NCBI GenBank assembly: GCA_036873755.1 | Contig: JAVTVY010019530.1 | Coordinates: 1-64,000, forward strand | From: Hanleya hanleyi | Lineage: Eukaryota > Mollusca > Polyplacophora > Lepidopleurida > Hanleyidae | Direction: 5' to 3' | DNA: 64,000 nt | Part shown: positions 39,098 through 55,764 of the stretch, piece after piece | Layout: each line of letters starts with the position of its first letter | Position numbering within the stretch: position 1 is the first letter of the stretch | The notes under the pieces: model-generated | Databases searched by the model: none | What the model saw: only the letters and a program-made list of their open reading frames with translations | What the model was told of the DNA's origin: nothing | Program-made: the position numbers and the translations under genes

Positions 39098-39101
39098 GAA
39101 C

Positions 39102-39326: not shown

Positions 39327-39803
39327 TTAAGTTAACCAGAGAAATGGCGCATGCACATTAAAACGAGAGGCCGTCCAGTCATAGACGAGGACATCCCGGT
39401 CTTCGGCTTGACAATAATCATCAAACATATGTACAATGGTGGACATAGAATGTCCTCTACTCCGGTGAGTGAGATAAAACACACAGTACTGTCCGCACAC
39501 ACTACTCAAGGGTCCTTGTAATCTTTGCGTATTCCAACGCCACTCTGTCGTAGAGACGTCCATGAATTTCACCAAATCGGCATGGAGGGGTGCAAGTCCG
39601 TAGGAATCAAAGTATTCGCCTTGGCCTAGGGTGTCCACGTACACAGCTATCCAATGTTCACCGGGTCGACTCTTCGTGTCTGTATTCAGGATGTAGGCTG
39701 CGGGGGTGGTAGAGTGGGTGGGAAACACATTGCGTGGAAACACACCTCGAAAGGGGATCTTGGCATCTCGCTGGAGTATGCTCATCAGCTGCTCTGTATC
39801 CAT
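39327..39803 (-). CDS. PRO: Adenain-like cysteine protease
   Basis: A 158-aa maturation protease of the adenovirus-protease (C5/Ulp1-like) type, expected to process capsid proteins. Visible active-site candidates are H50 in GEHWIAVYVD, D66 in GEYFDSYG, Q96 in LQGPL and C103 in SSVCGQYC. The Q-to-C spacing of seven equals that of adenain, and the order His-Asp-Gln-Cys fits. It starts 9 nt after the major capsid stop, so it is probably translated from the same mRNA. It is a little shorter than adenovirus protease (~200 aa), mainly at the C-terminus. Confidence 0.93.
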   Translation of the reverse strand: MDTEQLMSILQRDAKIPFRGVFPRNVFPTHSTTPAAYILNTDTKSRPGEHWIAVYVDTLGQGEYFDSYGLAPLHADLVKFMDVSTTEWRWNTQRLQGPLSSVCGQYCVFYLTHRSRGHSMSTIVHMFDDYCQAEDRDVLVYDWTASRFNVHAPFLWLT

Positions 39804-39812
39804 GATGACTCT

Positions 39813-41123: not shown

Positions 41124-41566
41124 TATGCGAAGATGTCTCCTATCCTACTACTTCTCTTCTTTTTCGTCTTCTGGGGCGTAGTCCTTCTCCTCCTGCTCTG
41201 GGGTGTGCGTCGTCGGTGTGTTGGACGTTGAATGAATGGCATCAGTGTCGGTGTTTGTCTTTTAAGGGCTTTGGCGATCAACACCCTGCCGCCTTGTCTA
41301 GCCCGGCGTTTGAAGGCTTTTCGGGGTGCTGTGCCTCTCATCACATCACCGGCCATGTCCAATCCACTGCGTACCGCTTGTTTTCCCACCGCTTTCACAC
41401 CCCGTGTCACCATGGGTAAAAACGTTTTCACAATGCTGCCCAGTATGTTTCCCAATCCGTGACCGCGTTGCGTGCGTGCCCCACTAAACATGGGCATGTT
41501 CCCGCCCGTTTGTTTCTTGTAGTAGTCGGCATAGCTGGGCGTATGGCACTGGTAAGGCACGTACAT
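41123..41566 (-). CDS. Basic core protein, adenovirus pX/Mu-like
   Basis: A 147-aa, very basic protein. It has a Tyr/Gly-rich N-terminus (MYVPYQCHTPSYADYYKKQ), a glycine-rich hydrophobic amphipathic middle (GLGNILGSIVKTFLPMVTRG, then KAVGKQAVRSG) and an Arg/Lys-rich C-terminus (RRRRTTPQKTKKKRSS). Adintoviruses and Polintons carry such a protein next to the capsid genes, and it resembles adenovirus pX, a DNA-condensing core protein. Function is inferred. Both of its boundaries are TAATG overlaps, with the penton-like gene upstream and MCP downstream. Confidence 0.85.
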   Translation of the reverse strand: MYVPYQCHTPSYADYYKKQTGGNMPMFSGARTQRGHGLGNILGSIVKTFLPMVTRGVKAVGKQAVRSGLDMAGDVMRGTAPRKAFKRRARQGGRVLIAKALKRQTPTLMPFIQRPTHRRRTPQSRRRRTTPQKTKKKRSSRIGDIFA

Positions 41567-42354
41567 TATACGAAGTGAGGAGAGCGAGCTTGTCGGAAAG
41601 CGAGTGTCAGCACCACTTTTCCTCGTTCGAATGGGATCGGACGTCCCGTGTCATCTCTTATATCCACCGTGATCGTGTTGATATCGGTATGTCGTACGGG
41701 CAGGAACATGACATGGTTGAAACTCTCCGTGGCTTGATCGCCATACGTGTTGCTAATGGGTACCACCCGTAACAGAGGTGTGTTCACATCACCCACAATA
41801 TGGCTGTCCACGGCATCCGAGTAGACGTACAGTCCGTACATACCTACTTTCATATCCATCAAATGAGTACCGTTGACAATGGTGGCCCCCCTCAAGACGC
41901 TGTGAGGCATCCTTAACATTTGCTGTAGTGTAGGACTGAGTTTCATTCTCACCTTATCGGTCAGCATGATAGAGCTCTTGTCGTTGTGTGCGTTGACATC
42001 GAACAACACGTTTCTCCTGAAGCGCAAGGATATCAGTTTTGCTCCTTCTTCTACGCTCTGCTTTAGAATGTTGTATTCCATCAAGTCCATCAGACACTGT
42101 ATGAACTTCTTGGGCGTATCGTATTGGCCTTGGGGCAGAGTCAGTCTGTAGATTTTATCTTCGAAGGTCACTTCGTACCATATTTCTCGGTCTTGTACGT
42201 TGTACCATGTGTAAGGGTATTGAATATCGACCAGTCCACATTCCCATCGCCCCGGTAAATGTAACGGTTGGGGTAATTGCGTGACATACTTGGTCAAGGT
42301 GTTGTCAGGAAACACATCGAGTGAGCTATTACTGGGCAACGTCAGGTAAAACAT
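41566..42354 (-). CDS. Minor capsid (penton-like) protein, single jelly-roll
   Basis: A 262-aa protein with the start typical of Polinton penton proteins: MFYLTLPSNSSLDVFPDNTL, then LPQPLHLPGRWECGLVDIQY and PYTWYN. It would form a single jelly-roll pentamer at capsid vertices. It is the first gene of a four-gene leftward unit (penton, pX, MCP, protease), with a TATA box 36 bp upstream of its ATG. Its TAA stop shares a base with the pX ATG. Confidence 0.92.
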   Translation of the reverse strand: MFYLTLPSNSSLDVFPDNTLTKYVTQLPQPLHLPGRWECGLVDIQYPYTWYNVQDREIWYEVTFEDKIYRLTLPQGQYDTPKKFIQCLMDLMEYNILKQSVEEGAKLISLRFRRNVLFDVNAHNDKSSIMLTDKVRMKLSPTLQQMLRMPHSVLRGATIVNGTHLMDMKVGMYGLYVYSDAVDSHIVGDVNTPLLRVVPISNTYGDQATESFNHVMFLPVRHTDINTITVDIRDDTGRPIPFERGKVVLTLAFRQARSPHFV

Positions 42355-42389
42355 GACGACGACTGAGTTGTTCTGGCTTCTGCACCGGG

Positions 42390-42397
42390 TTTTTATA
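42390..42397 (-). promoter_or_regulatory. TATA box of the capsid operon-like unit
   Basis: On the minus strand it reads TATAAAAA, 36 bp before the penton ATG, in the 56-bp gap after the preceding gene. A start near 42,365 would give a leader of only about 10 nt. Confidence 0.65.
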
Positions 42398-42410
42398 GAT
42401 GAGGTTCCCC

Positions 42411-43196
42411 TTAGTACGGTTCCCAGGCCTTGGGCGCCTGACCTCGGCGTCGTGATCGTCGCGGTGACTTAGCTCTGAGGGGGGTTTGCAGAGGGTGGCG
42501 TGGTAAAAGAGGTGACGAAGTAGGTGGTCGCCGTGCGGGTGTTTTGGGTGGTGTGTGCGGTTGCCATTCACCCCCTTCCCAGATAGGGAGAGGAAGTCGA
42601 GAGGGGGCTTGCATCCACTTCCAGCGTTCACGATTTCCTACCAATTCTTGAGGAGTGTGTGTGTCTTTTAATCCCTGAGCAAAGGCTTCCCAGCCCGGAG
42701 GTGGATTAGCGTGTTTGCGAGAACGGACCATATCGTTGATCAAATCGGTCATATGAGACCCCGGCACCACCTCGTTGCGAATCAGTAGTTTTCCTTCCGC
42801 ATTCCAACCCATATCGGCATTCTGTTTCACCCGGTCCAACAATAAACGGGCCTTGGTCTTTAAGGCTTTAGGCACACTGGCCAACACTTCCTGTTCCAGC
42901 TCAGGTGAAGCCGACGGTGTCGGTGGTGGTGGTGGTGGAAGTGTGGTGGGCGTGGTGGTGGTGGGTGGTAGTGTACTTCCGCTCCCTCTATATTGATCCA
43001 TAAACGTCTGGTACTGGTTCAGCGTATGATGGTAGAGTTGAATTTTCTCGTGATCGGGCAGTCGCCGTTGCAGTATACTATTCATCTCTTCATCCAGAGA
43101 CTGGAGTTGTTGCACGGTGGCCGGGACGGGATAGGGAGATTGTAAACTCTGTAACAGTCGAGGTTCGACCAGCATCATTTTTTTCGTATGGTCCAT
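42411..43196 (-). CDS. Conserved Polinton protein, unknown function
   Basis: A 261-aa protein. The N-terminal half is helical and coiled-coil-like (VQQLQSLDEEMNSILQRRL), followed by a Thr/Pro-rich linker. A conserved block then includes WNAEGKLLIRNEVVPGSHMT and DLINDMVRSRK, a motif that recurs in proteins beside Polinton capsid genes in many animals. The C-terminus is Pro/Arg-rich with SPRRSRRRGQAP. Function is unknown; a virion or assembly role is inferred from position. Its ATG follows the upstream stop with no gap (TAAATG). Confidence 0.75.
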   Translation of the reverse strand: MDHTKKMMLVEPRLLQSLQSPYPVPATVQQLQSLDEEMNSILQRRLPDHEKIQLYHHTLNQYQTFMDQYRGSGSTLPPTTTTPTTLPPPPPPTPSASPELEQEVLASVPKALKTKARLLLDRVKQNADMGWNAEGKLLIRNEVVPGSHMTDLINDMVRSRKHANPPPGWEAFAQGLKDTHTPQELVGNRERWKWMQAPSRLPLPIWEGGEWQPHTPPKTPARRPPTSSPLLPRHPLQTPLRAKSPRRSRRRGQAPKAWEPY

Positions 43197-43538
43197 TTAG
43201 CGTCCTCCCAAGATGGAACCGAGTAACGGGCCCAGTACAGTAGCGGCTAAGGGGGCCAGGAGTGCGCCGAGAAATCCACCTCGCTGTAACACCTGTTTCT
43301 TTTTCTTGACACTACCCGTCTTCTGCACTAACGTTCGGAGACCCGCCTTGTGCCGTTGCAATTTCCCTTTCTGAAGAGGACTGAGGGGGACATTGCCTTT
43401 TAAAACATTATGGGCTACTTCACACAAACACCGTACCAAGTCGGCATCCGCGCCGCGCACCAGGGCCCGGCCCACCTCCGGGGGCGCGCTGCGTAATACC
43501 CGCAGAGCGGGCGCGTGTTTGCGTAGCCGTGCAGACAT
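43197..43538 (-). CDS. Conserved small Polinton protein with hydrophobic C-terminus
   Basis: A 113-aa protein with the block LVRCLCEVAHNVLKGNVPL and LQKGKLQRHKAGLRTL, very common in animal Polinton-derived sequences. A poly-Lys patch (KKKKQ) and a Gly/Leu/Ala-rich hydrophobic tail (GGFLGALLAPLAATVLGPLL) follow. The tail could act on membranes, like adenovirus protein VI, but that is a guess. It is the first gene of a two-gene unit with the 261-aa protein. Confidence 0.75.
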   Translation of the reverse strand: MSARLRKHAPALRVLRSAPPEVGRALVRGADADLVRCLCEVAHNVLKGNVPLSPLQKGKLQRHKAGLRTLVQKTGSVKKKKQVLQRGGFLGALLAPLAATVLGPLLGSILGGR

Positions 43539-43573
43539 GATGAGGAATGAGGGCTAGAGACCGTGGTCTTCTT

Positions 43574-43581
43574 CTTTTATG
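43574..43581 (-). promoter_or_regulatory. TATA-like box for the 113-aa/261-aa unit
   Basis: It reads CATAAAAG on the minus strand, 36 bp before the ATG at 43538, the same spacing as at the capsid unit. It is weaker than the other TATA boxes. Confidence 0.5.
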
Positions 43582-43592
43582 CTCTTCTTTAC

Positions 43593-44207
43593 TCATTTGG
43601 GGGTGTACACCGTCTGTAGCTCACCGGGGAAAATGAGCGTACGCAATCGCAGGGTGGAGGGCGTGTCTTGTTTCAAGTCGATGAGTAGATAGCCGTGAGC
43701 AGGTTGAGTCGCATCTTCAAAGGCTTCTCGTACAAAGGCCGTGTTTTTAGGGTACATCTGTTGAGCCAGGTGGGTAATTTGCGAAGCGTCTCTGGGGTTT
43801 TTGAATAACACCACATACTGAGCATTCAAACTAATGTTTCGGTGTTCTTTGTTCTTACTGAAGAGATTCTGTACGATGTAGATGATGCTCAATCGACGAT
43901 GATGGCTGCCTTTGGTAAAGAGACGGGTGATTCGACTATCCGTTTCCGTCATGAGATCGTCCACCACCACTAAGGTGTCTGGGGGTAGTTCCTCAGGCGG
44001 TAAGCCTTCCACTAAGGTAAGTCCTGGGACACGGGCCAGTGCCTCGTACGCGGGCTGCCAAGCGCCATAACACCACAGGATACGCGCTAGAGGGGGTGAA
44101 ATCAGGGCTGACCCATGTTGGATGAGACGTTGAACAAAGTGCGTTTTTCCCGAGCCGGTCGGTCCAGCGATGAGGCACGTGAATGGATGCTGCCATCGCG
44201 GGTCCAT
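43593..44207 (-). CDS. ATP: FtsK/HerA (A32-like) DNA-packaging ATPase
   Basis: A 204-aa P-loop ATPase. Walker A is GPTGSGKT (residues 15-22) and Walker B is LVVVDDL (79-85). A likely sensor region is IIYIVQNLF, and an SLNAQYVVLFKNPRDASQI block is typical of the Polinton/A32 family. It is expected to drive genome packaging into the capsid. It starts 8 nt after the stop of the membrane-protein gene with no TATA box of its own, so it is probably the second cistron of that unit. Confidence 0.95.
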   Translation of the reverse strand: MDPRWQHPFTCLIAGPTGSGKTHFVQRLIQHGSALISPPLARILWCYGAWQPAYEALARVPGLTLVEGLPPEELPPDTLVVVDDLMTETDSRITRLFTKGSHHRRLSIIYIVQNLFSKNKEHRNISLNAQYVVLFKNPRDASQITHLAQQMYPKNTAFVREAFEDATQPAHGYLLIDLKQDTPSTLRLRTLIFPGELQTVYTPK

Positions 44208-44215
44208 AATTTTCT

Positions 44216-44761
44216 TTAGGGGATGATTTGACGCTTAGAAGTCCACCCCAGTTGTCGTGGATACCGCCGGAAATCGTACTCGAAGGGGTACCGTTGTCGG
44301 GATAAACGTTGTGATTCACGGGGATCCACTGCAAAACTGGTTAACGGTGTCGTGGTAGTACTAGAGGGTGATGATGATGATGAGGTGGGAGGATCGTCCT
44401 GGCTTCTCAGGGATGCCGGCAGATCACGTGGAGTGGTGGTGGTGGTGGTCGTGGTGGGTGGCTGGATGGTGCGGGTAAAGGGTAACGTGGTGAGGGCTGG
44501 AGTAGACGACGTCTGGGCTGGTAACGTAGGTGTCTGGGTTGATACGTCGCGGACCCTTGACGTCTTGGCTGGTATAGGCAGTGTGGTCGGGGTGGGGGTG
44601 GTGGTAGATGGAGAACGCAGGGTGTTCAAACAGGCTATCACGGTCGTCAAATCGTAGAACACACCGGTAAATAACGTACCCACAAGCACGACTACACACA
44701 CTAGAGTGCCCACTTGTGCTTTTCGAGTTCTTAACAGTAAGGGAAGATGTGTACTATCCAT
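44216..44761 (-). CDS. Membrane protein with Thr/Pro-rich stalk
   Basis: A 181-aa protein with one clear hydrophobic segment (VGTLVCVVVLVGTLFTGVFY, about residues 17-36). A long Thr/Ser/Pro-rich, mucin-like region follows, then a basic/aromatic C-terminus (RQRYPFEYDFRRYPRQLGW). No family is recognised. Topology suggests a single-pass virion or host membrane protein with an O-glycosylatable stalk. It is the first gene of a unit with the ATPase. Confidence 0.7.
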   Translation of the reverse strand: MDSTHLPLLLRTRKAQVGTLVCVVVLVGTLFTGVFYDLTTVIACLNTLRSPSTTTPTPTTLPIPAKTSRVRDVSTQTPTLPAQTSSTPALTTLPFTRTIQPPTTTTTTTTPRDLPASLRSQDDPPTSSSSSPSSTTTTPLTSFAVDPRESQRLSRQRYPFEYDFRRYPRQLGWTSKRQIIP

Positions 44762-44802
44762 GTTACAATCCTGTACTGAAGGCGGGTGGTGCTAGGGGTT
44801 AG

Positions 44803-44810
44803 CATTTATA
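44803..44810 (-). promoter_or_regulatory. TATA box for the membrane-protein/ATPase unit
   Basis: TATAAATG on the minus strand, 42 bp before the ATG at 44761. It overlaps the last codons of the integrase frame (ends 44806). Confidence 0.65.
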
Positions 44811-45378
44811 GACGTTTCATGTCACGGCCGGACACCCAGGAATTAAAAGACCGAGGCCAACCTTGCCATTTGACCAGATGATAGGGAATGCCACGTCGAC
44901 GTTCCGTTTTCAAAATCTTTTCCACCGTGTAGTAGTCTTTCGATGTTTTCACTATGGGTTGTAATTCTGCCTCGTAAAACGTGCCTTGCAGTCTCTCGCC
45001 TTGTAGATCTTCCAGTTGATAGACGTGGGGCTGTCGAGGTTTATGGCGAACGATGACAAAGTGCTCGTCACTCCAGTTGGGCAAGTAACTTTTCTCAAAT
45101 CGGCCTTTCACTTTACTGATCCGCACCATATCTCCACGTTTGTACCGGGGTGCCGCCGCAGCCGCCGTCGGTGTGGGTGGACTAGAGGAGTACAGCGTAG
45201 CACGCACTTGATGTTCGTTGCGTTCTGTCACATCCCGGGGCGCTCGCTGGATACTGCGATGATAAGCACGATTGTAGCCTTGGACCAGTTGAGGTAGTAC
45301 ATCCAGGTAGCGTCGGGTGTTTTGGGCCGTAAAATACTTGTACATCCGTCCTTTGAAGGTGCGATTAAAGCGTTCCAC
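44806..45378 (-). CDS. INT: Integrase, C-terminal part (after frameshift) with chromodomain
   Basis: The downstream part of the retroviral-type integrase in a different frame from the upstream part. It begins at the catalytic Glu region (ERFNRTFKGRMYKYF). It continues through RYLDVLPQLVQGYNRAYHRS, an SH3-like RYKRGDMVRISKVKGRFEKS segment, and ends with a chromodomain (VEKILKTERRRG, HLVKWQGWPRSFNSW). Chromodomains in Polinton and Gypsy integrases guide insertion to modified chromatin. There is no ATG at its start; the frame opens with GTG, consistent with a broken or shifted frame rather than a separate gene. Confidence 0.9.
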   Translation of the reverse strand: MERFNRTFKGRMYKYFTAQNTRRYLDVLPQLVQGYNRAYHRSIQRAPRDVTERNEHQVRATLYSSSPPTPTAAAAAPRYKRGDMVRISKVKGRFEKSYLPNWSDEHFVIVRHKPRQPHVYQLEDLQGERLQGTFYEAELQPIVKTSKDYYTVEKILKTERRRGIPYHLVKWQGWPRSFNSWVSGRDMKRL

Positions 45379-45941
45379 TACCGACGCTTTCGTCTCGTTG
45401 TACGTATGGAAAAAAATACCTTCTTTTTCTTAAGAAAAGCTTGAAAGGGTCGGTTGAGAAATTCTGTGCCTTCATCGGTTTGCAAATAAAGAGGTTTGCG
45501 CCCCGTCTTGAAAATCTGCTGAAACGCTGCTATGAGATTCTCTCCTGTTTTGGTGCGAACGGGGAGGACCCAGGCATACTTGGATAAAATATCGATACAG
45601 GTCAATATATATCGATGTCCATCATCGTCACGTGCAAATCGACTCATGTCCACTAAATCCGCCTGCCATTGTGCATCTATCCCGCCGACGATCACCCGGT
45701 TACGACGAAAATGGCGTCGGGCAGCTCGATGTAAGCTATAGGTGTCTTGGGTTTTTAACCAGTCTCGAACTTGAGTTCGACTAATGCCTTGAGAATGGGC
45801 CGCTCGAGCTAGCGCTCCCACAGCGCTAAAGGCAGCCGGGCTCGTCGGCTTGTAATACAAATCGGTTAAGACCTGGTTAATCACTGTAGACGCCTTTTTG
45901 CCCGTGGGGGACCGTCGCCTGACAGTCACATTCTTCTTCAT
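45378..45941 (-). CDS. INT: Integrase, N-terminal part with first two catalytic Asp
   Basis: The upstream part of the integrase (rve/DDE fold). Catalytic D95 is in WQADLVDM and D156 in LQTDEGTEF; the third acidic residue lies in the other frame. The frames part at a run of seven T (minus strand, 45409-45415) just after a Lys-rich stretch. A one-base difference there would join them with DD35E-like spacing. This could be a mutation, an assembly homopolymer error, or programmed -1 slippage; no downstream pseudoknot was identified. The ATG at 45941 overlaps the end of the preceding gene by 65 nt. Confidence 0.88.
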   Translation of the reverse strand: MKKNVTVRRRSPTGKKASTVINQVLTDLYYKPTSPAAFSAVGALARAAHSQGISRTQVRDWLKTQDTYSLHRAARRHFRRNRVIVGGIDAQWQADLVDMSRFARDDDGHRYILTCIDILSKYAWVLPVRTKTGENLIAAFQQIFKTGRKPLYLQTDEGTEFLNRPFQAFLKKKKVFFSIRTTRRKRR

Positions 45942-46473
45942 GGGGTCGTCTCTGGGTCGCCGTCATGTATGGGCTCGCTTCATCAACTGACACTCTAGTC
46001 TCTGTGCTTTCACTAGATATAGTCGTTTCTTCACCTGTATCAGCATCCTCAGACAGTTTTTCATGGGGTTCAGCAAAATCTTGACAAGCACGAACCCACG
46101 CCAATTGTTCAGGTGATCGATGGTCGGGTGTAAACAGCAGGTCGACAATAGGGACTACTTTCTCCAAAGCTAACCACAGAGAGAGAGTTAGCGGGAAACT
46201 TCGTGTGGGCTCTTGATAGCGACCCACACTTAGGAGGCCGTCAGTAAGGTAGACGTAAATAGCATTGTCCATGTGAATGAGGTGCCCGTCTAACTCTTGG
46301 TTCAACACCCGTTGAAAGTTAGTCCACCCATCACGCTCTAGTGTCACCCTTTTCGATAGAGTCTCAGCGTGTTTCCAGCAAATATCTTCACCGTGTTCCA
46401 CCAGCATGACTTTAGCTGCGTAAACGTATAACCCCACGTGGGGTGTAAGCGGCAGAATGGCTCGTAGTGACAT
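45877..46473 (-). CDS. PC4-like repeat protein (two modules), acidic tail
   Basis: 198 aa from the ATG at 46473. Two modules (about 10-58 and 67-114) each have short beta strands and then a V-x-L-x4-W-x2-L-type helix (RVTLERDGWTNFQRVL; FPLTLSLWLALEKVVPIVD). This layout resembles the PC4/p15 single-stranded DNA-binding fold. The first module is clearly paralogous to part of the next gene (shared LTPH, CW, GW..RVL and LDG..IH). The tail is Ser/Glu/Asp-rich. PC4-like assignment is inference from pattern. A role in DNA replication or late transcription is plausible. Confidence 0.6.
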   Translation of the reverse strand: MSLRAILPLTPHVGLYVYAAKVMLVEHGEDICWKHAETLSKRVTLERDGWTNFQRVLNQELDGHLIHMDNAIYVYLTDGLLSVGRYQEPTRSFPLTLSLWLALEKVVPIVDLLFTPDHRSPEQLAWVRACQDFAEPHEKLSEDADTGEETTISSESTETRVSVDEASPYMTATQRRPHEEECDCQATVPHGQKGVYSD

Positions 46474-46525
46474 GCTTGCTCTCAATGTCGAACGGGAAAT
46501 GATACACACTCTGTCTCATCCCCGG

Positions 46526-46533
46526 TATTTATA
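46526..46533 (-). promoter_or_regulatory. TATA box for the 198-aa gene and probably integrase
   Basis: TATAAATA on the minus strand, about 53 bp before the ATG at 46473, just before the stop of the upstream PC4-like gene. The integrase has no TATA box of its own and overlaps the 198-aa gene, so both may share this promoter. Confidence 0.6.
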
Positions 46534-46537
46534 GGGT

Positions 46538-47227
46538 CTATTCTGTGAGAGGCGGTTCGTGTGGAGCGAGAACTTTATCCACCACGGGAACTATTTCTTG
46601 CAAAGCCATCCATAAATCGGGATCTAGCGTAAATCCCCCTCGATTGAGACAGAGTAGTCGGGCAAAAAAAGGGCCCCGAAAAATATATACATCGGAACAC
46701 AGATGTATAGTATTTCCATCGAGATGACCGAATAACACGCGTTTCAAGGTATTCCACCCTGCCGAGGTTAAAGACACACGCGCCGGTTCTGGCGAAGACC
46801 AACAGCGCGAATCATCATCAATAAGCTCGACGCGTCCGGGATAAATTACTAAGGTGCAATGCGGCGTGAGGGTACGGGTAACGATGGAATTCGATTCAGG
46901 GTACAGCACGTCGTGAACCTGGGTAATAATAGCTTTCAATCCCTGCCATAATGCTGGCCAAAGTACTATAGCGCTCCTGTCATATTGTTCTAACCGTGGA
47001 AAAAACGAATCCTGGCTGCTAGTCCGCAAGTAAACATCCACGCCGACATACATAAAATTTACTTCGGGTTGTTTGCCTTGTAACACGCGCGTCAATAGCA
47101 TCCACCCGTCTACGGTTAAACATAAATTCACTTGTTCCTCGATAAGATGCAATTCATCTTCATATACGATAAGAAGCACCTTAGACGTCACTTGAAAGAA
47201 CGCGAGTGCCTTCCCTGGCGCTGACAT
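46538..47227 (-). CDS. PC4-like repeat protein (four modules)
   Basis: 229 aa from the ATG at 47227; the frame also extends 5 codons upstream without ATG. Four repeated modules lie at about 16-50, 58-108, 122-165 and 174-220. Each ends in a Trp-containing helix (NLCLTVDGWMLLTRVL; IVLWPALWQGLKAIITQVHD; VSLTSAGWNTLKRVL; GFTLDPDLWMALQEIVPVVD). The last resembles the PC4 C-terminal G-[IF]-[ST]-L-x2-x2-W pattern best. It is paralogous to the next gene downstream. It may bind single-stranded DNA, but no family hit could be run. Confidence 0.6.
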   Translation of the reverse strand: MSAPGKALAFFQVTSKVLLIVYEDELHLIEEQVNLCLTVDGWMLLTRVLQGKQPEVNFMYVGVDVYLRTSSQDSFFPRLEQYDRSAIVLWPALWQGLKAIITQVHDVLYPESNSIVTRTLTPHCTLVIYPGRVELIDDDSRCWSSPEPARVSLTSAGWNTLKRVLFGHLDGNTIHLCSDVYIFRGPFFARLLCLNRGGFTLDPDLWMALQEIVPVVDKVLAPHEPPLTE

Positions 47228-47244
47228 ACTGAAGAATGACAAAA

Positions 47245-47704
47245 ATACTAGGCCGACAAAAATTTATATAGACCGATTCTTGCTAAATTTTCATTGTAAA
47301 CAATTGTAAAAAATTCATACCCTGAGAAAAATAATTAAATTAACCCTGCAATTAATTTTTTAGACGCTCCCCGAGTGCATCAATTAATAGTGTGGACTCA
47401 AAACAGGATAAAAAAATAAAATATTATCATGGCTAGCATCGTATATCCACTTGTGATAATGATCTGAACAATGCCCAAAAATACTAGCCAGACAAAAATT
47501 TATATAGACCGATTCTTGCTAAATTTTCATTGTAAACAATTGTAAAAATTCATACCCTGAGAAAAATAATTAAATTAACCCTGCAATTATTTTTTTAGAC
47601 GCTCCCGAGTGCATCAATTAATAGTCTGGACTCAAAACAGGATAAAAAATAAAATATTATCAGGGCTAGCCTCGTCTATGAAGTTGTGATAATGATTTGA
47701 ACAA
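47245..47704. repeat. ~236-bp direct repeat carrying a promoter
   Basis: Two tandem copies (starting 47245 and 47481) share ACAAAAATTTATATAGACC and ATTGTAAACAATTGTAAAAA, and differ by a few indels. Each contains a leftward TATA box (TATATAAA on the minus strand, 47263-47270 and 47499-47506). Only the first is close to a gene start. Confidence 0.85.
47263..47270 (-). promoter_or_regulatory. TATA box for the four-module PC4-like gene
   Basis: TATATAAA on the minus strand, 36 bp before the ATG at 47227, the same spacing as at other units of the element. A duplicate lies 236 bp further upstream. Confidence 0.65.
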
Positions 47705-48350
47705 GCCTAGTCCTCTAAAACAGCCAAACCCGAAGCAAATCAAGGGCAGTACTCTTGCGTGCCAAACGCAATAAGGGGGCAGTACTCTGCACGGCCTAAA
47801 CCGCATTTTTCACATTTTGAACGAGAATATATTCATGTTGATTGATGAGCCAAAATGCTTTCCATGCAGTCCGCGCGTATTTCGTGACGACGACTGCTAG
47901 AGGCACACAGCGCGTGACTTTTGATTTGCGCCAACATGGTGTTTTTCTTACGGTGAAATCAAGGGTCTGTTTTTATCATTTTCTACCGTTGTCTTGGGAG
48001 AAACGAGCTGAAATTTTCAGAGCACACGTATAGAGTGATAAGTGATAGACTACCTATATTTTTTAATCCAGAACATTAATTTTTTTTGAATGAACCCGGT
48101 TTTCCGTACTTTCTTCCTACAACATTACGCCTCGAAAACTCGGTAAAAATTATAAATTCATGGCGTAGCCCAGGGCTAGACGGTTGAAATTTTTAATACT
48201 AGCCCCTGATTTATCTGAGTTTAATTGGAACTAAAAAATTCTACGGGGCTGACCCTGATTGGAAAATGACAAGCGTTTATAATTCATAAAGAAACACACA
48301 GCGAATTTCTTCGGCAAAAAATACAGAAAATGCTATCGCACACGTCCGCG
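47705..48350. other. Intergenic DNA between divergent units
   Basis: No supported gene. GGGCAGTACTCT occurs twice (about 47744 and 47778). TTTATAATT (48276-48284) and CATAAAG (about 48285) are weak TATA candidates for the rightward 222-aa gene. A 10-codon upstream ORF starts at 48330. Confidence 0.4.
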
Positions 48351-48351
48351 C

Positions 48352-49020
48352 ATGGTGGATAAATATCGCGATCAGCCTGATCGGAGCATTCGGAAAAAAT
48401 TATTTCTCGGAAAAACATACTTGGAGCAGCCGAAAATGAGTACTACAAGATTAAGTAGAAGAAAGCAACGTGCCATGAAGGCATATATACGCAGATTCTG
48501 GCGGTCGGAATTCCGTTCCTGGACAGCCGCCCTGGAAAATACTGCGACGCAAGAGGAGACGACAGCGAATAATGTACGGGTGCTGTTGGACGCGGCCCAA
48601 TCAACTATCGGCGAGGAGGACTGGTTTAACCATCTTCAAGAGGTAATGGAAGATATCCATGACAGGCCTCCTCACCCGTCGACGTCAACAGCGCCTGCCC
48701 AACAACATATTTTCGAAAATTTGCGGGGCGAAGAAATAATTTTATTAAGCCCGCCACACCATCATCCGGCCAGTACAGCGCCCCGGCAGGAGGGAGAGGG
48801 GGGGGGGAGGGTAACAACACCAGCCTTCCCGCTAGAAGATCTTCCCTCCTACCTAGACGAAAATGATGACCGGCCGCTGATCATTTTCGAGACACCGCCT
48901 CCTACCACGGCTGCCGCCATCTTCTTAGACGGCCAGCCCATCACCCCGGTCAACAATGCAGAAGATGGCGTCAGCCCGTACAACTACCACTCCACCAGCG
49001 GCACCACTTTAGGGATGTAA
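48352..49020 (+). CDS. Orphan acidic accessory protein
   Basis: 222 aa, not recognised. The ATG at 48352 has poor context and is overlapped by a short upstream ORF. The ATG at 48436 (AAAATG context) would give 194 aa starting MSTTRLSRRKQRAMKAYIRR and may be the true start. It has a basic N-terminal helix, a middle with EEDWFNHLQEVMEDIHD, and an acidic, Pro-rich C-terminus with several LxDE/IxFE-type short motifs. A nuclear regulatory protein is possible, by analogy with basic-plus-acidic layouts only. Its 3' end has a histone-type stem-loop 40 nt after the stop. Confidence 0.65.
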   Translation: MVDKYRDQPDRSIRKKLFLGKTYLEQPKMSTTRLSRRKQRAMKAYIRRFWRSEFRSWTAALENTATQEETTANNVRVLLDAAQSTIGEEDWFNHLQEVMEDIHDRPPHPSTSTAPAQQHIFENLRGEEIILLSPPHHHPASTAPRQEGEGGGRVTTPAFPLEDLPSYLDENDDRPLIIFETPPPTTAAAIFLDGQPITPVNNAEDGVSPYNYHSTSGTTLGM

Positions 49021-49059
49021 GCTACTCCCTCGTGAATAAAAACACGTTAAAATAATAAA

Positions 49060-49101
49060 TGCCCTTTTGAGGGCAAACCAATTCCTTCCGAGAGAGGAAA
49101 C
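49060..49101 (+). terminator. Histone-type 3' stem-loop and downstream box (A)
   Basis: A 6-bp stem with 4-nt loop, TGCCCT-TTTG-AGGGCA (49060-49075), followed by AACCA and, 14 nt after the stem, CGAGAGAGGAAAC. It lies 40 nt after the stop of the 222-aa gene. It matches the metazoan replication-dependent histone mRNA 3' end in stem length, loop and 3' flank. AATAAA motifs also occur just upstream, so ordinary polyadenylation is not excluded. Confidence 0.65.
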
Positions 49102-49218
49102 TTCTTACTAGCACATGAATTTAAAAAAAAGCACAGAATGTCCTACATTATTACCCCCTTTTTTTAAATTATTAGCAAACTACATGAAAAAAAACAATCC
49201 CGGCCCTATATATCAAAT

Positions 49219-49234
49219 GTCCTTGTCAGGACAA
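49219..49234 (+). terminator. Degenerate histone-type stem-loop (D)
   Basis: ATCAAA followed by TGTCCT-TGTC-AGGACA. The stem is perfect, but the loop deviates (TGTC) and the downstream box is only a CT-rich run. It may be a decayed copy or a backup for the 222-aa gene. Confidence 0.4.
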
Positions 49235-49480
49235 ATCTCTCTCATAAAAACACAGGATTTTTTTTTTGTCTTTTCTCTCTCTCCCCCATTAATTAATATA
49301 GAGTCTGCGCGATAACGGGCTCTTATTTTTTTGAATCGGGACATGTTACTAACCCCGAATACATAATCGGGGGAATTTATTTTTGATAAATAATACCCCG
49401 AATAAATAAGGGGAATTTATTTGGAACGAACACAGGGGCTGTATGATCTCGTGTTTAATTTTTTGTGCGTGATTAGCAGT

Positions 49481-49517
49481 TCTCTTTCGGGAAAGATAGT
49501 TTGTCCTGAAAAGGACA
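49481..49517 (-). terminator. Histone-type 3' stem-loop and downstream box (C)
   Basis: On the minus strand, TGTCCT-TTTC-AGGACA (49517-49502) is followed by AACTATC and, 13 nt after the stem, CGAAAGAGAAC. It lies 28 nt after the stop of the leftward RING gene. The loop TTTC is the canonical histone loop. An AATAAA overlaps its 5' flank. Confidence 0.7.
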
Positions 49518-49545
49518 ATTTATTTTTGATAATGTAATAAGGGCA

Positions 49546-50334
49546 TTACATCGTAGAGGAAGTCTGTAGTCGTTCTGTTCTAACAGCGCAAACGGAACAG
49601 CTCAAAGGTAGTAATTCACAGGGTTGGGGACGGATGGCTTCTGCACAGGTAGGTATTTTGGCTCGGCGATGGATGCAAACTTGACACAATGCCTGATGAC
49701 CACATGGAGAAATCGCGAACTTAGCGAATTGGTGGCTACATTGGACACAAGGTAAATATAACTTGCTTTGACGTTCTGGGTTACAGTCCAATGTTGAAGT
49801 TGTAATCGCCCAAACATAATACGCTTCGTCGTATACTTTTTTCACGGTTATTTTGCTCTCTTTCTTTTGCCTTGCATCTTTCCTCTCCGGTTGTCTAATC
49901 ATCCTCACATCTTTTCTGTTCTTTCTTGCATCTACCCTCTTCCTATTCGGCTTCTTCTTCTGGGTTAAATCTTCTTCTCTCTTCTTGTCATCCGCTCTTT
50001 CTTGTTGTTGTTGTGTAGCCTCGCTTCCCTGTGTTTCGGCAGGTGCATCATCTTGTTGTGATTTCAACAGCCCTGCTATGGTGTGATCTATCTCGTCAAA
50101 AGATTGGTATACGTCTGGAAAAACACCCGGTATGGCTGAAGTTGAAGCAGGTGGGTTCCCGGGTGGAATTAGTGGAAATAATTCCTCCATGATATTATTT
50201 ATCCAGGGTTGGTTGTTATCGGTCAAATTAATAATATTCCCGTCGAGTTGTAGTTGATTTTCATCATAGGTGAAGGTGGAGAAGAGGGATGTATCCATAT
50301 CCTTGATGTCGTCAGTCAGCAGTAGTGACTCCAT
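49546..50334 (-). CDS. RING-finger protein 1, acidic N-terminus
   Basis: A 262-aa protein. The N-terminus is acidic (MESLLLTDDIKDMDTSLFST) and the middle is Gln-rich, then strongly basic (KKKPNRKRVDARKNRK), a probable nuclear signal. The C-terminal RING-like zinc site has C196-x2-C199, C211-G-H213, C217-x2-C220, C230 and C246-x2-C249. RING proteins are usually E3 ubiquitin ligases; in DNA viruses they often disarm host defences or activate transcription. Here the role is inferred only. It is divergent from RING gene 2, with a TATA box at 50377-50385 and a histone-type 3' end. Confidence 0.8.
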   Translation of the reverse strand: MESLLLTDDIKDMDTSLFSTFTYDENQLQLDGNIINLTDNNQPWINNIMEELFPLIPPGNPPASTSAIPGVFPDVYQSFDEIDHTIAGLLKSQQDDAPAETQGSEATQQQQERADDKKREEDLTQKKKPNRKRVDARKNRKDVRMIRQPERKDARQKKESKITVKKVYDEAYYVWAITTSTLDCNPERQSKLYLPCVQCSHQFAKFAISPCGHQALCQVCIHRRAKIPTCAEAIRPQPCELLPLSCSVCAVRTERLQTSSTM

Positions 50335-50816
50335 GACTAGCTAGTCAAATTGTGAATAATTAAAAAAATACTGGGCTATTTATAGTCATATACGCGGATC
50401 GTAGCGTACAAGCACTGTAGCTGTGTGCTATATTTTTTACGACGCCCATAATCTGTGTTTCTTTTAAAATTTTAAACGACTGTCATTTATACAATAACTA
50501 TCAACACACCTATATTTTTATTGCAAGTTGCACTCAGGTAATTCAGTGTATTGTATTTTATAAATTTTACAGTCTAACGATACATTATACAATTATTTTT
50601 ATTAATTTTAGTGATTTTAAAACCAACAAATTAGGGTACGGTGGTAGGAAACACCATGTACATTGGGAATAAATTGATTTTTCCTGACTAAAAAAACGTG
50701 TACACTAGGGTGATATTCTTCTAATAATTCCCTGAAAATTGTAACGGGTTTTATCGAGAAATAATAGAAAATTTTAATGCTGGGACAAGCGTAACAATAA
50801 CACAGTGGACCAGCAT
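50335..50816. other. AT-rich spacer between the two RING genes
   Basis: No gene supported. The left edge carries the TATA box for RING gene 1. The rest is AT-rich without repeats that I can define. Confidence 0.4.
50377..50385 (-). promoter_or_regulatory. TATA box of RING gene 1
   Basis: TATAAATAG on the minus strand, 43 bp before the ATG at 50334. The same TATAAATAG precedes RING gene 2. Confidence 0.65.
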
Positions 50817-50819
50817 ATG

Positions 50820-51048
50820 ATTGCACTCACTGACACCAGTGTGGAAAGATGCATACAAAATGGCGGCACAACCCGTCCCACCCCAACTTCAAACTGGCTG
50901 CCATTTTGAATCTCTACCACACAGTGCACTGACTGACACCGATGTGGGAGAGAAAAACAAAATGGCGGCACAACCCGTCCCACCCCAACTTAAAACTGGC
51001 CGACATTTTGTACCCACCCTCCATCCCATCCCACTACACTATAAATAG
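50820..51048 (+). promoter_or_regulatory. Internal YY1-like motif array and TATA box of RING gene 2
   Basis: Two inverted pairs of the TIR motif are present (CAAAATGGCGGCACAAC with CTGCCATTTTG; CAAAATGGCGGCACAAC with CCGACATTTTG), together with the same CACTGACACC spacer sequence as the TIRs. A TATA box (TATAAATAG, 51040-51048) follows 37 bp before the ATG. It is thus a copy of the TIR enhancer module moved inside the element. Confidence 0.75.
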
Positions 51049-51084
51049 CGTATATTTTGGACATTTCTTCACCAATACAAAATC

Positions 51085-51888
51085 ATGAGTTTTAGAAGAG
51101 ACCGTCCCCTCTTTACGCACCATCCGACTCGAGATCCGAGAATTGTTGCAGAAGAACACAGAGAGATGATTACCAATGAAGAACAGGGAGGAATATCGAT
51201 CATCACCAGTTTTCAGCAAGTTATTGAAGACGAAGCCGCGTTAAGACACAGTACCGTAGAACTAGCGGAACAACTCAGGCAAGATGTGAGAGCAGAAGAA
51301 AATAGACGAATGCAAAGGCCAATACACAGAATGGGAGAATTACAAGAATACGACAGTGATGTCACGGTGGAGGGGGAATGGCTAAATACTGGTACACCTG
51401 CAACAACAACAACCACGATGACGTCGCCTGTCGACACTCCAGGTATAATGAGTTCGGTTGAACACCAGGCAGAATTAATTAGACTTCCCACAACTGTCGA
51501 AACTCCCACGATTTCAGCTGAAGAAACACAACAACAATGTCGCCACGAAGTCGAGATAATCCATCTCAACGATGAAATTATCGCCATGCGGGGAAGGATG
51601 ATTGGGATGGAAACGACGATGTCTGGAATGCAGATGACCATTTCCCAACAAAAGAAAGAACTCCATTTAGAGGAGAAAAACAAACGCTGCAGCATTTGCA
51701 CGGATGAAGAAAGTTGTTATGCCGTGTTACCCTGTGGACATCTTTGCCTGTGTATAGAGTGCTGGGTGACGCTGACGTGTGAAGGGGCAATGTGTCGCTG
51801 CATTGATGCCGGCGAGTGCCATTTAAAAATAAAGTGCCCCCTTTGCAGAAAACATGTCGGTGGAGTGAAACGAATATATCGCGCATAA
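51085..51888 (+). CDS. RING-finger protein 2, coiled coil plus C-terminal RING
   Basis: A 267-aa protein. Residues ~150-200 form a coiled coil (HEVEIIHLNDEIIAMRGRM and following). The C-terminal RING starts C202-S-I-C205 and continues with C217-G-H219, C223-x2-C226 and, after a Cys-rich insert (AMCRCIDAGEC), CPLC before the C-terminus. The LPCGHLCLC part resembles IAP/viral RINGs. A ubiquitin-ligase role is expected from the family; the target is unknown. Expression is from the internal YY1-like array. The 3' end is a histone-type stem-loop 23 nt after the stop, without AATAAA nearby. Confidence 0.82.
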   Translation: MSFRRDRPLFTHHPTRDPRIVAEEHREMITNEEQGGISIITSFQQVIEDEAALRHSTVELAEQLRQDVRAEENRRMQRPIHRMGELQEYDSDVTVEGEWLNTGTPATTTTTMTSPVDTPGIMSSVEHQAELIRLPTTVETPTISAEETQQQCRHEVEIIHLNDEIIAMRGRMIGMETTMSGMQMTISQQKKELHLEEKNKRCSICTDEESCYAVLPCGHLCLCIECWVTLTCEGAMCRCIDAGECHLKIKCPLCRKHVGGVKRIYRA

Positions 51889-51911
51889 GTGTGTGGTATC
51901 ACACTATCAAA

Positions 51912-51950
51912 GGCCCTTTTCAGGGCCAACCATCTTTCCGAAAGAGAAAA
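51912..51950 (+). terminator. Histone-type 3' stem-loop and downstream box (B)
   Basis: ATCAAA, then GGCCCT-TTTC-AGGGCC (51912-51927), then AACCATC and, 12 nt after the stem, CGAAAGAGAAAAC. This fits the animal histone stem-loop consensus at every stem and loop position. The downstream box contains AAAGAG, the element that pairs with U7 snRNA. It is the best of the set and has no competing AATAAA. Confidence 0.75.
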
Positions 51951-52059
51951 CTTCTTTCAAAAGCACACCAAAATAACACCAACCCCTCATCCCCCCATTT
52001 TTCCCAAAAAATTTTTTTCACAGTGATCTGGGAAGTGTAATTTTTTTTTTTGAGGTAGT

Positions 52060-52124
52060 GGGTCGAGTGAAGTATCATATTGAAGCTGACGTGAAATGCT
52101 TCACATTGATACCTCACTCGACCC
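52060..52124. ncRNA. Candidate precursor hairpin 1
   Basis: 65 nt folding into a stem of about 27 pairs. The arm from GGGTCGAGTGAAGTATCA pairs with TGATACCTCACTCGACCC with one mismatch, continued by TGAAGC/GCTTCA around an 11-nt loop. Size and shape resemble a pre-miRNA, but expression is unknown and the strand is undecided. Confidence 0.35.
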
Positions 52125-52212
52125 CATTGGACCACTAGGGGCTGCCCTAACTCCAAAAAGGCTATTGGTGGTGGGTAGTGGTAACGGCGTAAATAATTTT
52201 TTTGGTAGTAGT

Positions 52213-52277
52213 GGGTCGAGTGAGGTATCAAATTGAAGCTGACGTGAAATGCTTCACATTGATACCTGACTCGACCC
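52213..52277. ncRNA. Candidate precursor hairpin 2
   Basis: A second copy 153 bp downstream with the same 65-nt architecture and identical loop TGACGTGAAAT. Its single mismatch in the long stem is at a different place from hairpin 1, so pairing is maintained while sequence drifts. It could equally be a fold-back repeat. Confidence 0.35.
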
Positions 52278-52908
52278 CATTGCGCCATTAGGGACGCCTC
52301 TAACCCCAAAAAGACTATTTTTGAAGATTGATCTTGAGCCGCCATTTTGTACACGATATCAATTAGCCTTTTTTGGAGTTAGGGGCATCCCTAATGGTCC
52401 AATCGGGTCGAGTAAGGTATTAAATTGAAGCTTAGGTGAAAGAGCATCTGATAGACTGGATGTGGGCTTGAATTAGGGTGATTCTGCGCATGCGCGAAGG
52501 CAAGATTGATATTGAGCCGCCATTTTGTACACGATATCAATTAGCCTTTTTGGAGTTAGGGGCGTCCCTAATGGTCCAATCGGGTCGAGTAAGGTATTAA
52601 ATTGAAGCTTAGGTGAAGGAGCATCTGATAGACTGGATGTGGGCTTGAATTAGGGTGATTCTGCGCATGCGCGAAGGCCGAAGGCTATGAAAATAGCCTT
52701 TTTTGTAGCTAGGACAGCCCCTAGTCACCCGATGGAGCCGAGTAAGGTATCAATGTGAAGCTTAGGTGAAGGGGCATCTCATGGACTAGGTGTAGCGTTG
52801 ACATATCGGCCTTGTGCACAATTTAAAAAAAGAATGAACACTAACAAGCAATAGAATGAACACAAAACCAGCATTTTTTTTTTTTTTTTTAAATTTTTTC
52901 CTACTATT

Positions 52909-52914
52909 TTTATT
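52909..52914 (-). terminator. Poly(A) signal for the right-TIR gene
   Basis: AATAAA on the minus strand, about 170 bp after the stop of the 398-aa gene. No histone-type stem-loop is present for this gene. Confidence 0.45.
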
Positions 52915-53084
52915 AACACAGAATGAACGTATTCACAAGGGTGTTGAATTTAATACAATTATATCTGAATATTGAATTTTTTTTAAATACAATTAACAGT
53001 GAAAAAAAAACCCCTCTGAATTTCTTAATACAATTATACGCTCTCCAGATCAATAAATGTAAATGTTTTTTTCAACACTTGTTC

Positions 53085-54281
53085 TCAATAGTTCGCCAGC
53101 AAGACTTGCTTGAATTCATCATCATCATCTTTCCGTCCTTGGTGCACGTAAATGTAGGTCACAATCTCTTCAGGTGGGATTTTGGTAGGACAAGCCGCTA
53201 CCACTGCCAGCGCAATTTCCATCTCGGTGACAGCCTGTAGTGCTTCAGTGATGCTCTCGTATGAGGCTACAAGAGTGTCCATACGAGGTTTGATGAGCTG
53301 CAGGACTGTGTCAATGTACTTGTGATAAATATAATTAGACACCTGGTAGGCCAGAGTTTGACGAATTGTACTGGTAAGACTCTGCAACTTCCGCCAGGCC
53401 GGTAATTTCAAAGTAACACCTTGAGGACAAGCCACAAGCTCTTGCGTATCTAATCGCTTTCGCCATTTTCGAATATGCACCAGGAGCTGGTCATTGAAAT
53501 AAGCACAGCTGACATAGATGTCCTCACCCACAGGAAATTTCGCTTCGTCATTTCCCTGGTCACGAATAACCGCATCGATGTCGTAATCAAGGGTCTCCAG
53601 TTTTTGCCAGGTGTCCAAGTTCATGGTAATATGCTTACCAGGGCCGCCGTTAAAGCCCGCGGCATTAAAATGCACTTCCTCCTCTTTCACACTCACTGTT
53701 AAATAGGGTGAAAGCTCCCAAATGTTCTTGTGGGCTGCTTCGTGAGCCTCTTGGATCAGATTGTTGATCTCCTGGACAGACATAGGAAGTTCTACCTTTT
53801 GTTTCACTTGCTGGGGTACTACTACTGGCTCCTGAATCACTGACTCAGGTATTACTAACGGTGTTAGACGGGGCCGTCCAGCACGTTTTGCACGTTTAGC
53901 AGGTGTTGTACTCGCTGGGCTAGTGTGCGAACGTTTGCTAGCTGTACGCTGTTCGGTAGTGTCCACCACTAACATATCTTCATCTGGTATAACGTCGTCG
54001 GCTTCAAGTAGCTTGGCTAGTTCTTCATTTCCCGTGATCTTCAACGCCATCACGAAGGCTATACATCCATAGTAGGTAGACTGCTGTACATAATCGATGA
54101 GGGCTGTGTTTTGCGCTGAAGGGGTTTTCTCCGCCATGATTTCTTCGACATCCTGTTCCAGGAGTATGTTTTCCTCCGTCATAAGGTAATCACATAATTC
54201 ATCCACATGCTCCATCTCATCAATCAGACGAACACGGTACTTTGCAAGCCTCACTAAAATTAATGATAATGATGACGCCAT
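53085..54281 (-). CDS. Large accessory protein with C-terminal PC4-like domains
   Basis: 398 aa from the first ATG at 54281; the open frame upstream has no ATG. The N-terminal half is helical and acidic (EMEHVDELCDYLMTEENILL). Residues ~115-139 are a basic nuclear-signal-like region (KRAKRAGRPRL). A degenerate module sits at 192-239. A well-preserved PC4/p15-like domain follows at 249-309 (FPVGEDIYVSCAYFNDQLLV, HIRKW, then GVTLKLPAWRKLQSL), matching the strand pattern and the Trp-helix of PC4. PC4 binds single-stranded DNA and modulates transcription. It is fired from the right TIR promoter, so an early replication or transcription factor is likely. Confidence 0.75.
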   Translation of the reverse strand: MASSLSLILVRLAKYRVRLIDEMEHVDELCDYLMTEENILLEQDVEEIMAEKTPSAQNTALIDYVQQSTYYGCIAFVMALKITGNEELAKLLEADDVIPDEDMLVVDTTEQRTASKRSHTSPASTTPAKRAKRAGRPRLTPLVIPESVIQEPVVVPQQVKQKVELPMSVQEINNLIQEAHEAAHKNIWELSPYLTVSVKEEEVHFNAAGFNGGPGKHITMNLDTWQKLETLDYDIDAVIRDQGNDEAKFPVGEDIYVSCAYFNDQLLVHIRKWRKRLDTQELVACPQGVTLKLPAWRKLQSLTSTIRQTLAYQVSNYIYHKYIDTVLQLIKPRMDTLVASYESITEALQAVTEMEIALAVVAACPTKIPPEEIVTYIYVHQGRKDDDDEFKQVLLANY

Positions 54282-54426
54282 GACTTTGGGCTGGTGAAAA
54301 ACTATTGCGGAGCAATAGTCTGTTGAAATGGCACTGGTAAAATCGAAAAAAGTAAATAGGTCTTCCACAGCTGATACAAAACAGGCAAACTGGCTGAATG
54401 ACTGGCTGGAAGTGAAGTAAGCAGGC

Positions 54427-55158
54427 AGGCAGGGAGGCAGACAGACAGGTCAGGTAAGTCAAATTGAATACACCCCTTGCCCTAAAAATCGACTCCTTTT
54501 ATACGTTTTTCACGTGGTGTGGAGAGAGAAATACAAAATGGCGGCCAGTTTGAAGTGGGGTGGAACGGGTTGGGCCGCCATTTTGCATCCTCCACATGCA
54601 CTGACACCCGTGTGGGGAGAGAAATACAAAATGGCGGCCAGTTTGAAGTGGGAGTGGAACGGGTTGTGCCGCCATTTTGCATCCTCCACCACACATGCAC
54701 CCGTGTGCGAGAGAAATTCAAAATGGCGGCCAGTTTGAAGTGGGAGTGGAACGGGTTGGGCCGCCATTTTGGATCCTCCACCACAAGACACCGGTGTGGG
54801 AGAGAAAAACAAAATGGCGGCCAGTTTGAAGTGGGGTGGGACGAGTTGAGCCGCCATTTTGAATCCTCCAGACACCGGTGTGGGAGAGAAAAACAAAATG
54901 GCGGCCAGTTTGAAGTGGGAGGGGGACGAGTTGAGCCGCCATTTTGTAAACCACACACATGCACTCAATGACACCGTGTGGTGGAGATTCAAAATGGAGG
55001 ACAGTTTGAAGTGGGAGGGGGACGAGTTGTGCCGCCATTTTGAATCCTCCACCACACATCAACTCACGCATGCGCACACACACACTTATGACGTCAATCC
55101 AAGTTCTGCGCATGCGCACTGAACCCAATTTGACTTTAAGTCCGCTTTGTATACTACT
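54427..55158 (-). repeat. Right terminal inverted repeat with YY1-like motif array
   Basis: The inverted counterpart of the left TIR, with the same outer tip, GCGCATGCGC palindrome, six paired AAAATGGCGGC/GCCGCCATTTTG units, TATA box and CCTG-type repeat. The outer region has TATGACGTCA (CRE-like) and a CACACA run absent from the left copy. Unit sequences differ slightly from the left, so the two TIRs have started to diverge. Confidence 0.9.
54496..54503 (-). promoter_or_regulatory. TATA box for the 398-aa gene in right TIR
   Basis: TATAAAAG on the minus strand in the same context as at the left TIR. It is 215 bp before the ATG at 54281. Confidence 0.7.
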
Positions 55159-55764
55159 CTGGTACGCGATGATGTTGGGAAAATATTTCCCGTTCGTGTT
55201 CAAGTTCGTACAGTAATCAGAAATAATGCAAAAATGATCGTTTTATTCTAATCTCTGTTTTCAGAAGACAGCTATGGTCGAATCCCCGGTGACGACGTTG
55301 CTGCCTTGAACTTGAATTTGACGATCCAAGAATTGAGAGAATTAAACACGCGTTAAAAATGGATCCACCCGATCTTCACCGACCCAAGTCAACACAATCG
55401 AATAGACCCAGAACCTGAATTACAACCTGAATTTCTTCTTTCCGTTTACTTGTGAAAATTACTAAGATATTCAAAGCATTGTCTACATTGTCGAGCCCAG
55501 ATCATGTAATTCTCTTGCTTATAAATAAAAGTATAACTGAATAATATTAAGTAACGGGTGATAGTTGGATTGTTGTCATTGGCAATGCTCCTTGTTTTTC
55601 ACCATGAGAATACGGTCCCTACCAGACGTTCATTAACTAATGAACTGTCATTAACTAATTCATTCTTTGTCAAATGTTCCACGACAGTCTGAAATTCTCA
55701 AATGTTTCACGGCGGTCTGAATTTCTCAATGGGGTTCGCCAGCCACGGCGCTATAGTGCTCCAA

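Follow-up and report, generated by a model that had tools for sequence, protein, structure and literature searches.

Three accessory genes of a Polinton-like element in the genome of Hanleya hanleyi end in the 3′ signals of replication-dependent histone genes. The element lies in the 64-kb stretch analysed here (contig JAVTVY010019530.1; hereafter the window), and its genes g222, RING1 and RING2 each carry, past the stop codon, a 6-bp stem with a UUUN loop followed at the histone distance by a purine-rich box, AAAGAG or a variant of it, as in the replication-dependent histone mRNA 3′ end (RF00032) served by SLBP and the U7 small nuclear ribonucleoprotein (snRNP). The same cassette is found at the host's own H4, H2B and H2A 3′ ends, whereas here a mobile element carries it, on accessory genes that do not encode histones. 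On the sequence evidence, this accessory-gene module very probably uses SLBP/U7 histone 3′-end processing. Histone-type 3′ ends on accessory genes had been proposed in an earlier sequence-only reading, which our analysis supports; cleavage at these ends, the missing tail and S-phase coupling would come with such processing. All work on the host concerns one genome, the window's own assembly (GCA_036873755.1, 2.48 Gb). The genes and their cassettes are listed below, with scores for the Rfam model Histone3, whose gathering score is 34 bits.

48352..49020, + strand: g222, an accessory gene; open reading frame (ORF) with an alternative start ATG at 48437 and no Pfam match.
49060..49075, + strand: g222 histone-type stem-loop, TGCCCT-TTTG-AGGGCA; Histone3 16.0 bits, below gathering.
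49089..49096, + strand: g222 purine-rich downstream box, CGAGAGAG; starts at nt 14 past the stem.
49546..50334, − strand: RING1, a C3HC4-type RING protein gene; Pfam zf-C3HC4_3 E 1.1e-4, 22.4 bits (below the curated cut-off of 27); TATAAA at −50.
49502..49517, − strand: RING1 histone-type stem-loop, TGTCCT-TTTC-AGGACA; Histone3 17.7 bits, below gathering.
49482..49489, − strand: RING1 purine-rich downstream box, CGAAAGAG; starts at nt 13 past the stem.
51085..51888, + strand: RING2, an IAP-like C3HC4 RING protein gene; Pfam zf-C3HC4_3 27.8 bits (cut-off 27); TATAAA at −45.
51912..51927, + strand: RING2 histone-type stem-loop, GGCCCT-TTTC-AGGGCC; Histone3 34.3 bits (gathering 34).
51939..51946, + strand: RING2 purine-rich downstream box, CGAAAGAG; starts at nt 12 past the stem.
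51963..51967, + strand: GCACA box 3′ of the RING2 cassette, also present in host histone ends at offset 33–34.

The three stem-loops lie where the sequence-only reading had placed them, each with a CGARAGAG-type box 12–14 nt past the stem, as it had said. Its stop-to-stem gaps hold for RING1 (28 nt) and RING2 (23 nt), while that of g222 is 39 nt rather than 40. Perfect 6-bp stems with a YYTTTTNARR core occur in the window exactly at these three places, and GARAGAG stands behind all of them; first-order Markov simulation yielded such stems at 0.15 per 64 kb, never with a box in 60 + 200 + 600 runs (11.0 Mb). Among 16 ORFs checked, a histone-type stem on the sense strand within 150 nt past the stop was found only at g222, RING1 and RING2 (0/13 others). 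A covariance search with Histone3 placed the window's RING2 end and six RING1 copies above the gathering score; it did not do so for the window's RING1 and g222 stem-loops, which went unreported in wider scans and surfaced solely in 56–58-nt searches. Taken alone, the three window sequences show weak covariation (53/500 shuffles as good).

Copies of these genes across the assembly carry the same ends. There are at least 144 RING2 matches, of which 9 have an internal stop, and at least 146 RING1 matches, of which 6 have one. For RING2 we read 50 of the 144 ends, namely the 30 best, among them the window's own, plus the 20 lowest; for RING1 we read 50 of the 146, again the 30 best with the window's own among them, plus 20 of the low-ranking ones. 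A further 29 ends, those of g222, come from the 30 best RING1 loci. Copies were not de-duplicated, and some read alike here (L194/L195, L209/L210). The stem-loop is kept in 128 of the 129 gene ends read, with all six pairs in 123: it was found in 50/50 RING2 ends (6/6 pairs in 49), 49/50 RING1 ends (6/6 pairs in 45) and 29/29 g222 ends (6/6 pairs in all 29). L193, L225, L226, L231 and L265 each have one broken pair and L285 has the loop TGTC; L244, whose reading frame ends differently, showed no stem past the stop. The downstream box or a variant follows in 128/128 copies with a stem, 11–14 nt past it, and reads exactly GARAGAG in 49/49 RING1 and 29/29 g222 ends. GCACA is present in 126/128 element ends at offset 32–38; for the 50 RING2 ends, the box core lies at 13–15 nt and GCACA at 35–38.

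Changes in the stems of these copies are mostly compensated. When mapped on the tree of the RING1 coding sequence, pair 1 of g222 shows four changes per side, always together, pair 4 of RING1 shows two on each side, and pair 1 of RING1 shows eight 5′-side and five 3′-side changes. The RING1 stem classes GGTTCT-AGAACC and TGTCCT-AGGACA differ by a compensated change, and pairs 2 (G-C) and 5 (C-G) are invariant in both the RING1 and the g222 sets. For RING2, mean pairwise identity is 0.956 in the stem-loop; it is 0.74 in the untranslated region (UTR) ahead of the stem-loop and, stretch by stretch past the box, 0.77, 0.58 and 0.42. The RING1 stem, at 0.83, likewise exceeds the UTR before it (0.68).

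The host's histone genes provide a direct comparison. H4 was found at 27 places in the assembly, and we read nine histone ends: H4 at seven loci, together with the H2B and H2A genes of one cluster, which we take to be such from their sequences. All nine carry GGCCCTTTTCAGGGCC-AACCA, then AAAGAG after 13–14 nt and GCACA at offset 33–34. The window's RING2 stem-loop is identical to the host histone stem-loops read, and element and host ends match in stem, flank and downstream box, a comparison that the sequence-only reading had proposed. Over the first 28 nt past the stem, only 0–4 of 500 shuffles reached the element–host score in each of 9/9 comparisons. From 28 to 80 nt past the stem, the score was reached by 2/500 shuffles for RING1–H2B, 14 for RING1–H4, 15 for g222–H4 and at least 123 for each of the other six. 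Similarity beyond the downstream box is thus mostly not significant and does not establish descent of the whole 3′ flank from a host histone gene. Six RING1 copies score 37.1–37.3 bits with Histone3, above gathering, whereas three host histone ends score 30.8–32.9, below it; four RING2 ends score 34.3 (window) and 33.5, 30.1 and 26.4 (copies, below gathering).

In PMC7026596, animal histone mRNAs are described as having a hairpin bound by SLBP and a downstream element paired with U7, with CPSF73 cutting between the two; in mouse, AAAGAG is the core of the downstream element and pairs with U7 CUCUUU. Replication-dependent histone genes are described, in PMC1924863, by mRNAs that lack a poly(A) tail and end in a hairpin. 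The cis-signals of the element have the form that the host itself uses, so processing by the host is the simplest reading. Host SLBP would bind the stem-loop of the element mRNA, the U7 snRNP would pair with the downstream element, and CPSF73 would cut about 5 nt past the stem to leave a non-polyadenylated mRNA. It is mainly in S phase that histone-type mRNAs are produced, translated and kept from decay. Given what this end does on histone mRNAs, the RING proteins and g222 may be made while the host cell replicates its DNA. The genes for the protease, polB and a CARD-PC4 protein have AATAAA in place of a histone-type end; this signal lies past their stops at +75, +228 (after a tRNA-Leu) and +170, respectively. 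At the ten remaining genes of the minus-strand chain, neither AATAAA nor ATTAAA occurs within 300 nt past the stop, which suggests that their transcripts have one common 3′ end.

We consider it likely that a high-copy, virus-like DNA element has put its early or accessory module under the host SLBP/U7 pathway, so that S phase would switch on host-manipulating genes while capsid and replication genes would use poly(A) signals. This would be the first animal mobile element or DNA virus with histone-type ends on its own non-histone genes, and poly(A)-selected RNA-seq would largely fail to detect the transcripts. If so, the histone 3′-end pathway can be borrowed by a selfish element as a ready-made S-phase switch, SLBP and U7 have natural non-histone substrates, and poly(A)-selected data would miss these transcripts; the arrangement also suggests a way for Polintons to time their expression to host replication.

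Several results weigh against this reading. The cassette is looser than in the host, all of whose nine ends read alike, whereas the element's stem, last loop base and 5 nt past the stem vary. The exact GARAGAG is present in only 11/50 RING2 ends, the other 39 having variants such as GGAAGAG. The 5 nt past the stem read AACCC or AACCA in RING2 and AACAA in 25/29 g222 ends, and vary most in RING1 (CACTA in 22/49, the rest TTATC, AACTA, ACCTT and others). Histone3 gave no match at E 0.05 for 5 of the 15 element loci scanned (L193, L240, L245, L251 and L222). Strict tests of independent-pair covariation had too few pairs for significance; the g222 stem (identity 0.89) does not exceed the UTR ahead of it (0.91) in conservation, and the stretch past the RING1 box (0.88) is more conserved than the RING1 stem. 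For g222 and RING1, it is pairing rather than conservation that argues for the stem. The Rfam U7 model matched nowhere, in the host assembly and in all 14 control genomes alike, and so is uninformative about a host U7. Duplexes of the three boxes with human and sea-urchin U7 5′ ends were weak, with 3–24% of shuffles doing equally well, and at several of the element's other gene ends the best duplex within 120 nt was as strong or stronger. Five distant relatives (L186–L190, described below) showed no histone-type stem, and their contigs also gave no accessory-gene match.

Poly(A) signals weigh on the same side. The sequence-only reading had noted AATAAA near two of the three genes, a difference from histone 3′ ends that holds for the window; in the copies, AATAAA is kept ahead of the stem for g222 (27/29), where it lies within a small covarying hairpin, and not for RING1 (1/49), in which it instead occurs within 150 nt past the stem (48/49). 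Polyadenylated forms of g222 and RING1 are possible as a result. RING2 copies have AATAAA between stop and stem in 0/50 and within 150 nt past the stem in 5/50.

Two smaller hairpins lie beside the cassettes:

49031..49046, + strand: small hairpin 5′ of the g222 stem-loop, its loop containing AATAAAAA; 4-bp arms that covary in copies.
49218..49233, + strand: fourth stem-loop, TGTCCT-TGTC-AGGACA, between g222 and RING1, without a downstream box; R1 model 19.5 bits, E 0.075.

The arms of the first covary between CCTG/CAGG and CGTG/CACG in 27/29 loci. A stem similar to the fourth stem-loop is present in 12/29 loci and reads GGTCCT-TGTG-AGGACC in other copies; its outer pair is compensated, and it has no downstream box.

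Generic hairpins, such as terminators, RNA-stability elements or DNA palindromes for replication or packaging, might resemble histone ends by chance. The parts of the cassette are singly common, with 68 perfect 6-bp/4-nt palindromes and 28 GARAGAG in the window, and the box-less fourth stem-loop lies between g222 and RING1. Yet the loop, closing pairs, spacing and downstream box of the three cassettes follow the host histone pattern, the cassette occurs only at three accessory gene ends of 16 ORFs and on the sense strand, and no simulated stem had a box. With retention in 128/129 ends and the host match added to the simulation, we reject the chance and generic-hairpin readings as extremely improbable. 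It is very unlikely, although slightly less so, that a captured host histone 3′ flank persists as a passenger with little function on mRNAs that are polyadenylated. The GCACA shared with host histones and the AATAAA that g222 keeps in a covarying hairpin fit such an origin, but compensated stem changes on several branches, retention of the stem despite gene divergence (median dS ~0.3 among copies) and the scarcity of nearby AATAAA at RING2 do not.

A refinement compatible with processing by SLBP and U7 is that some genes have dual ends, the histone-type end being used in S phase and an AATAAA-driven poly(A) mRNA outside it. We regard this as possible but doubtful. The frequency of AATAAA at g222 and past the RING1 stem favours it, and there is a precedent in C. 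elegans, whose replication-dependent histone genes combine the stem-loop with a nearby AATAAA: according to PMC1924863, AATAAA follows the hairpin there, yet the mRNA ends mainly at the hairpin. Those are host histone genes, however, and their putative downstream element is AATCC, not CGARAGAG. Most RING2 copies have no such poly(A) signal, so dual ends would not be general, and in the window the AATAAA downstream of RING1 sits in an A/T-rich palindromic stretch and may be incidental.

In the open-access literature, we found no paper joining Polintons or adintoviruses with histone-type 3′ ends; passages of PMC11071296 deal with histone-like proteins of other viruses and not with 3′ ends. The cis-signal is of a known kind; what appears new is that a mobile element uses it on accessory genes of its own.

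The three genes themselves share little. The alignment of RING1 with RING2 covers just 25 residues, in the RING, and g222 shows no RING, so that the shared 3′ cassette is not readily explained by simple gene duplication. g222 has no homologue at E 0.001 among 5.8 billion proteins, and RING2 had no match in a search of the same size and threshold; the RING of RING2 is closest to those of cIAP and XIAP (BIRC3 RING, E 1.5e-5). g222 adjoins RING1 in 29 of the 30 best RING1 loci, L232 being without a g222 match. Median dN/dS, over 250 pairs for each gene, is 0.29 for RING2 and 0.41 for RING1, taken from the 48/50 and 49/50 copies, respectively, whose aligned part has no internal stop; both genes are under purifying selection.

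The element that carries them is bounded as follows:

34226..55159, no strand: Polinton-like element between terminal inverted repeats, with an rve integrase core, a chromodomain and an adenovirus-type protease.

It resembles Polintons/Mavericks (adintovirus-like integrated viruses) in its terminal inverted repeats (~34226–34960 and ~54447–55159; main arms 95–100% complementary), an rve integrase with chromodomain, an adenovirus-type protease and an ATPase, and differs from them in its histone-type 3′ ends, undescribed in the open-access papers searched. Pfam matched rve (E 4.7e-12) and the chromodomain (E 1.7e-6) on two separate ORFs, Peptidase_C5 on the protease ORF (24.6 bits, cut-off 21.3; an adenovirus-type cysteine protease) and Pox_A32 and IVa2, both weakly, on the ATPase ORF. 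A 436-aa ORF is presumably the capsid gene by its size, place and gene order; 1,792 homologues were found for it at E 0.001, but neither a Pfam match nor a solved relative in the PDB. The 1312-aa ORF, which we take to be polB from its size, its place and a DTDS motif, is 41% identical to an ORF of L186 and has no Pfam polymerase match at E 0.1 and no solved polymerase as a relative.

Relatives were sought in two collections. In IMG/VR, neither single queries with PolB and the capsid nor a capsid alignment of 30 rows turned up relatives. A first stem-loop pattern gave at least 120 stretches there, and among the matches listed eight had a 6-pair stem and a box, unlike histone ends by eye; the canonical pattern gave 11 matches, none with a box, and a third pattern gave 56, none with a full stem and GARAG. 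In GTDB, five capsid relatives (L186–L190) lie among Polinton genes on contigs binned as symbiont or bacterial genomes, which are probably animal or virus DNA within those bins. The genome behind L187 returned no histone stem at E 0.001, an empty answer that shows nothing. On the contig of L190, in a planctomycete bin, a 172-aa ORF (L190:2559-3077, − strand) resembles the TATA-binding protein by eye.

Other features of the element were observed in passing. The integrase is split over two ORFs at window 44806–45941 (− strand) and is a single ORF in L186. The tRNA-Leu (anticodon taa) at 39014–39097 (+ strand) lies 42 nt past the polB ORF stop, ahead of the polB AATAAA, and could be cargo or a processing site. 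The CARD-PC4 ORF (53085–54281, − strand) has a CARD domain (E 1.4e-11) and a PC4 match of 22.7 bits (below the curated cut-off of 25), and so places a death-fold protein on a Polinton. Inside the terminal repeats (window 34306–34880 and 54520–55060) are tandem units with paired AAATGGCGGC / GCCGCCATTTT motifs, which we take to be YY1-like, and a unit similar to these lies upstream of RING2 (window 50850–51010).

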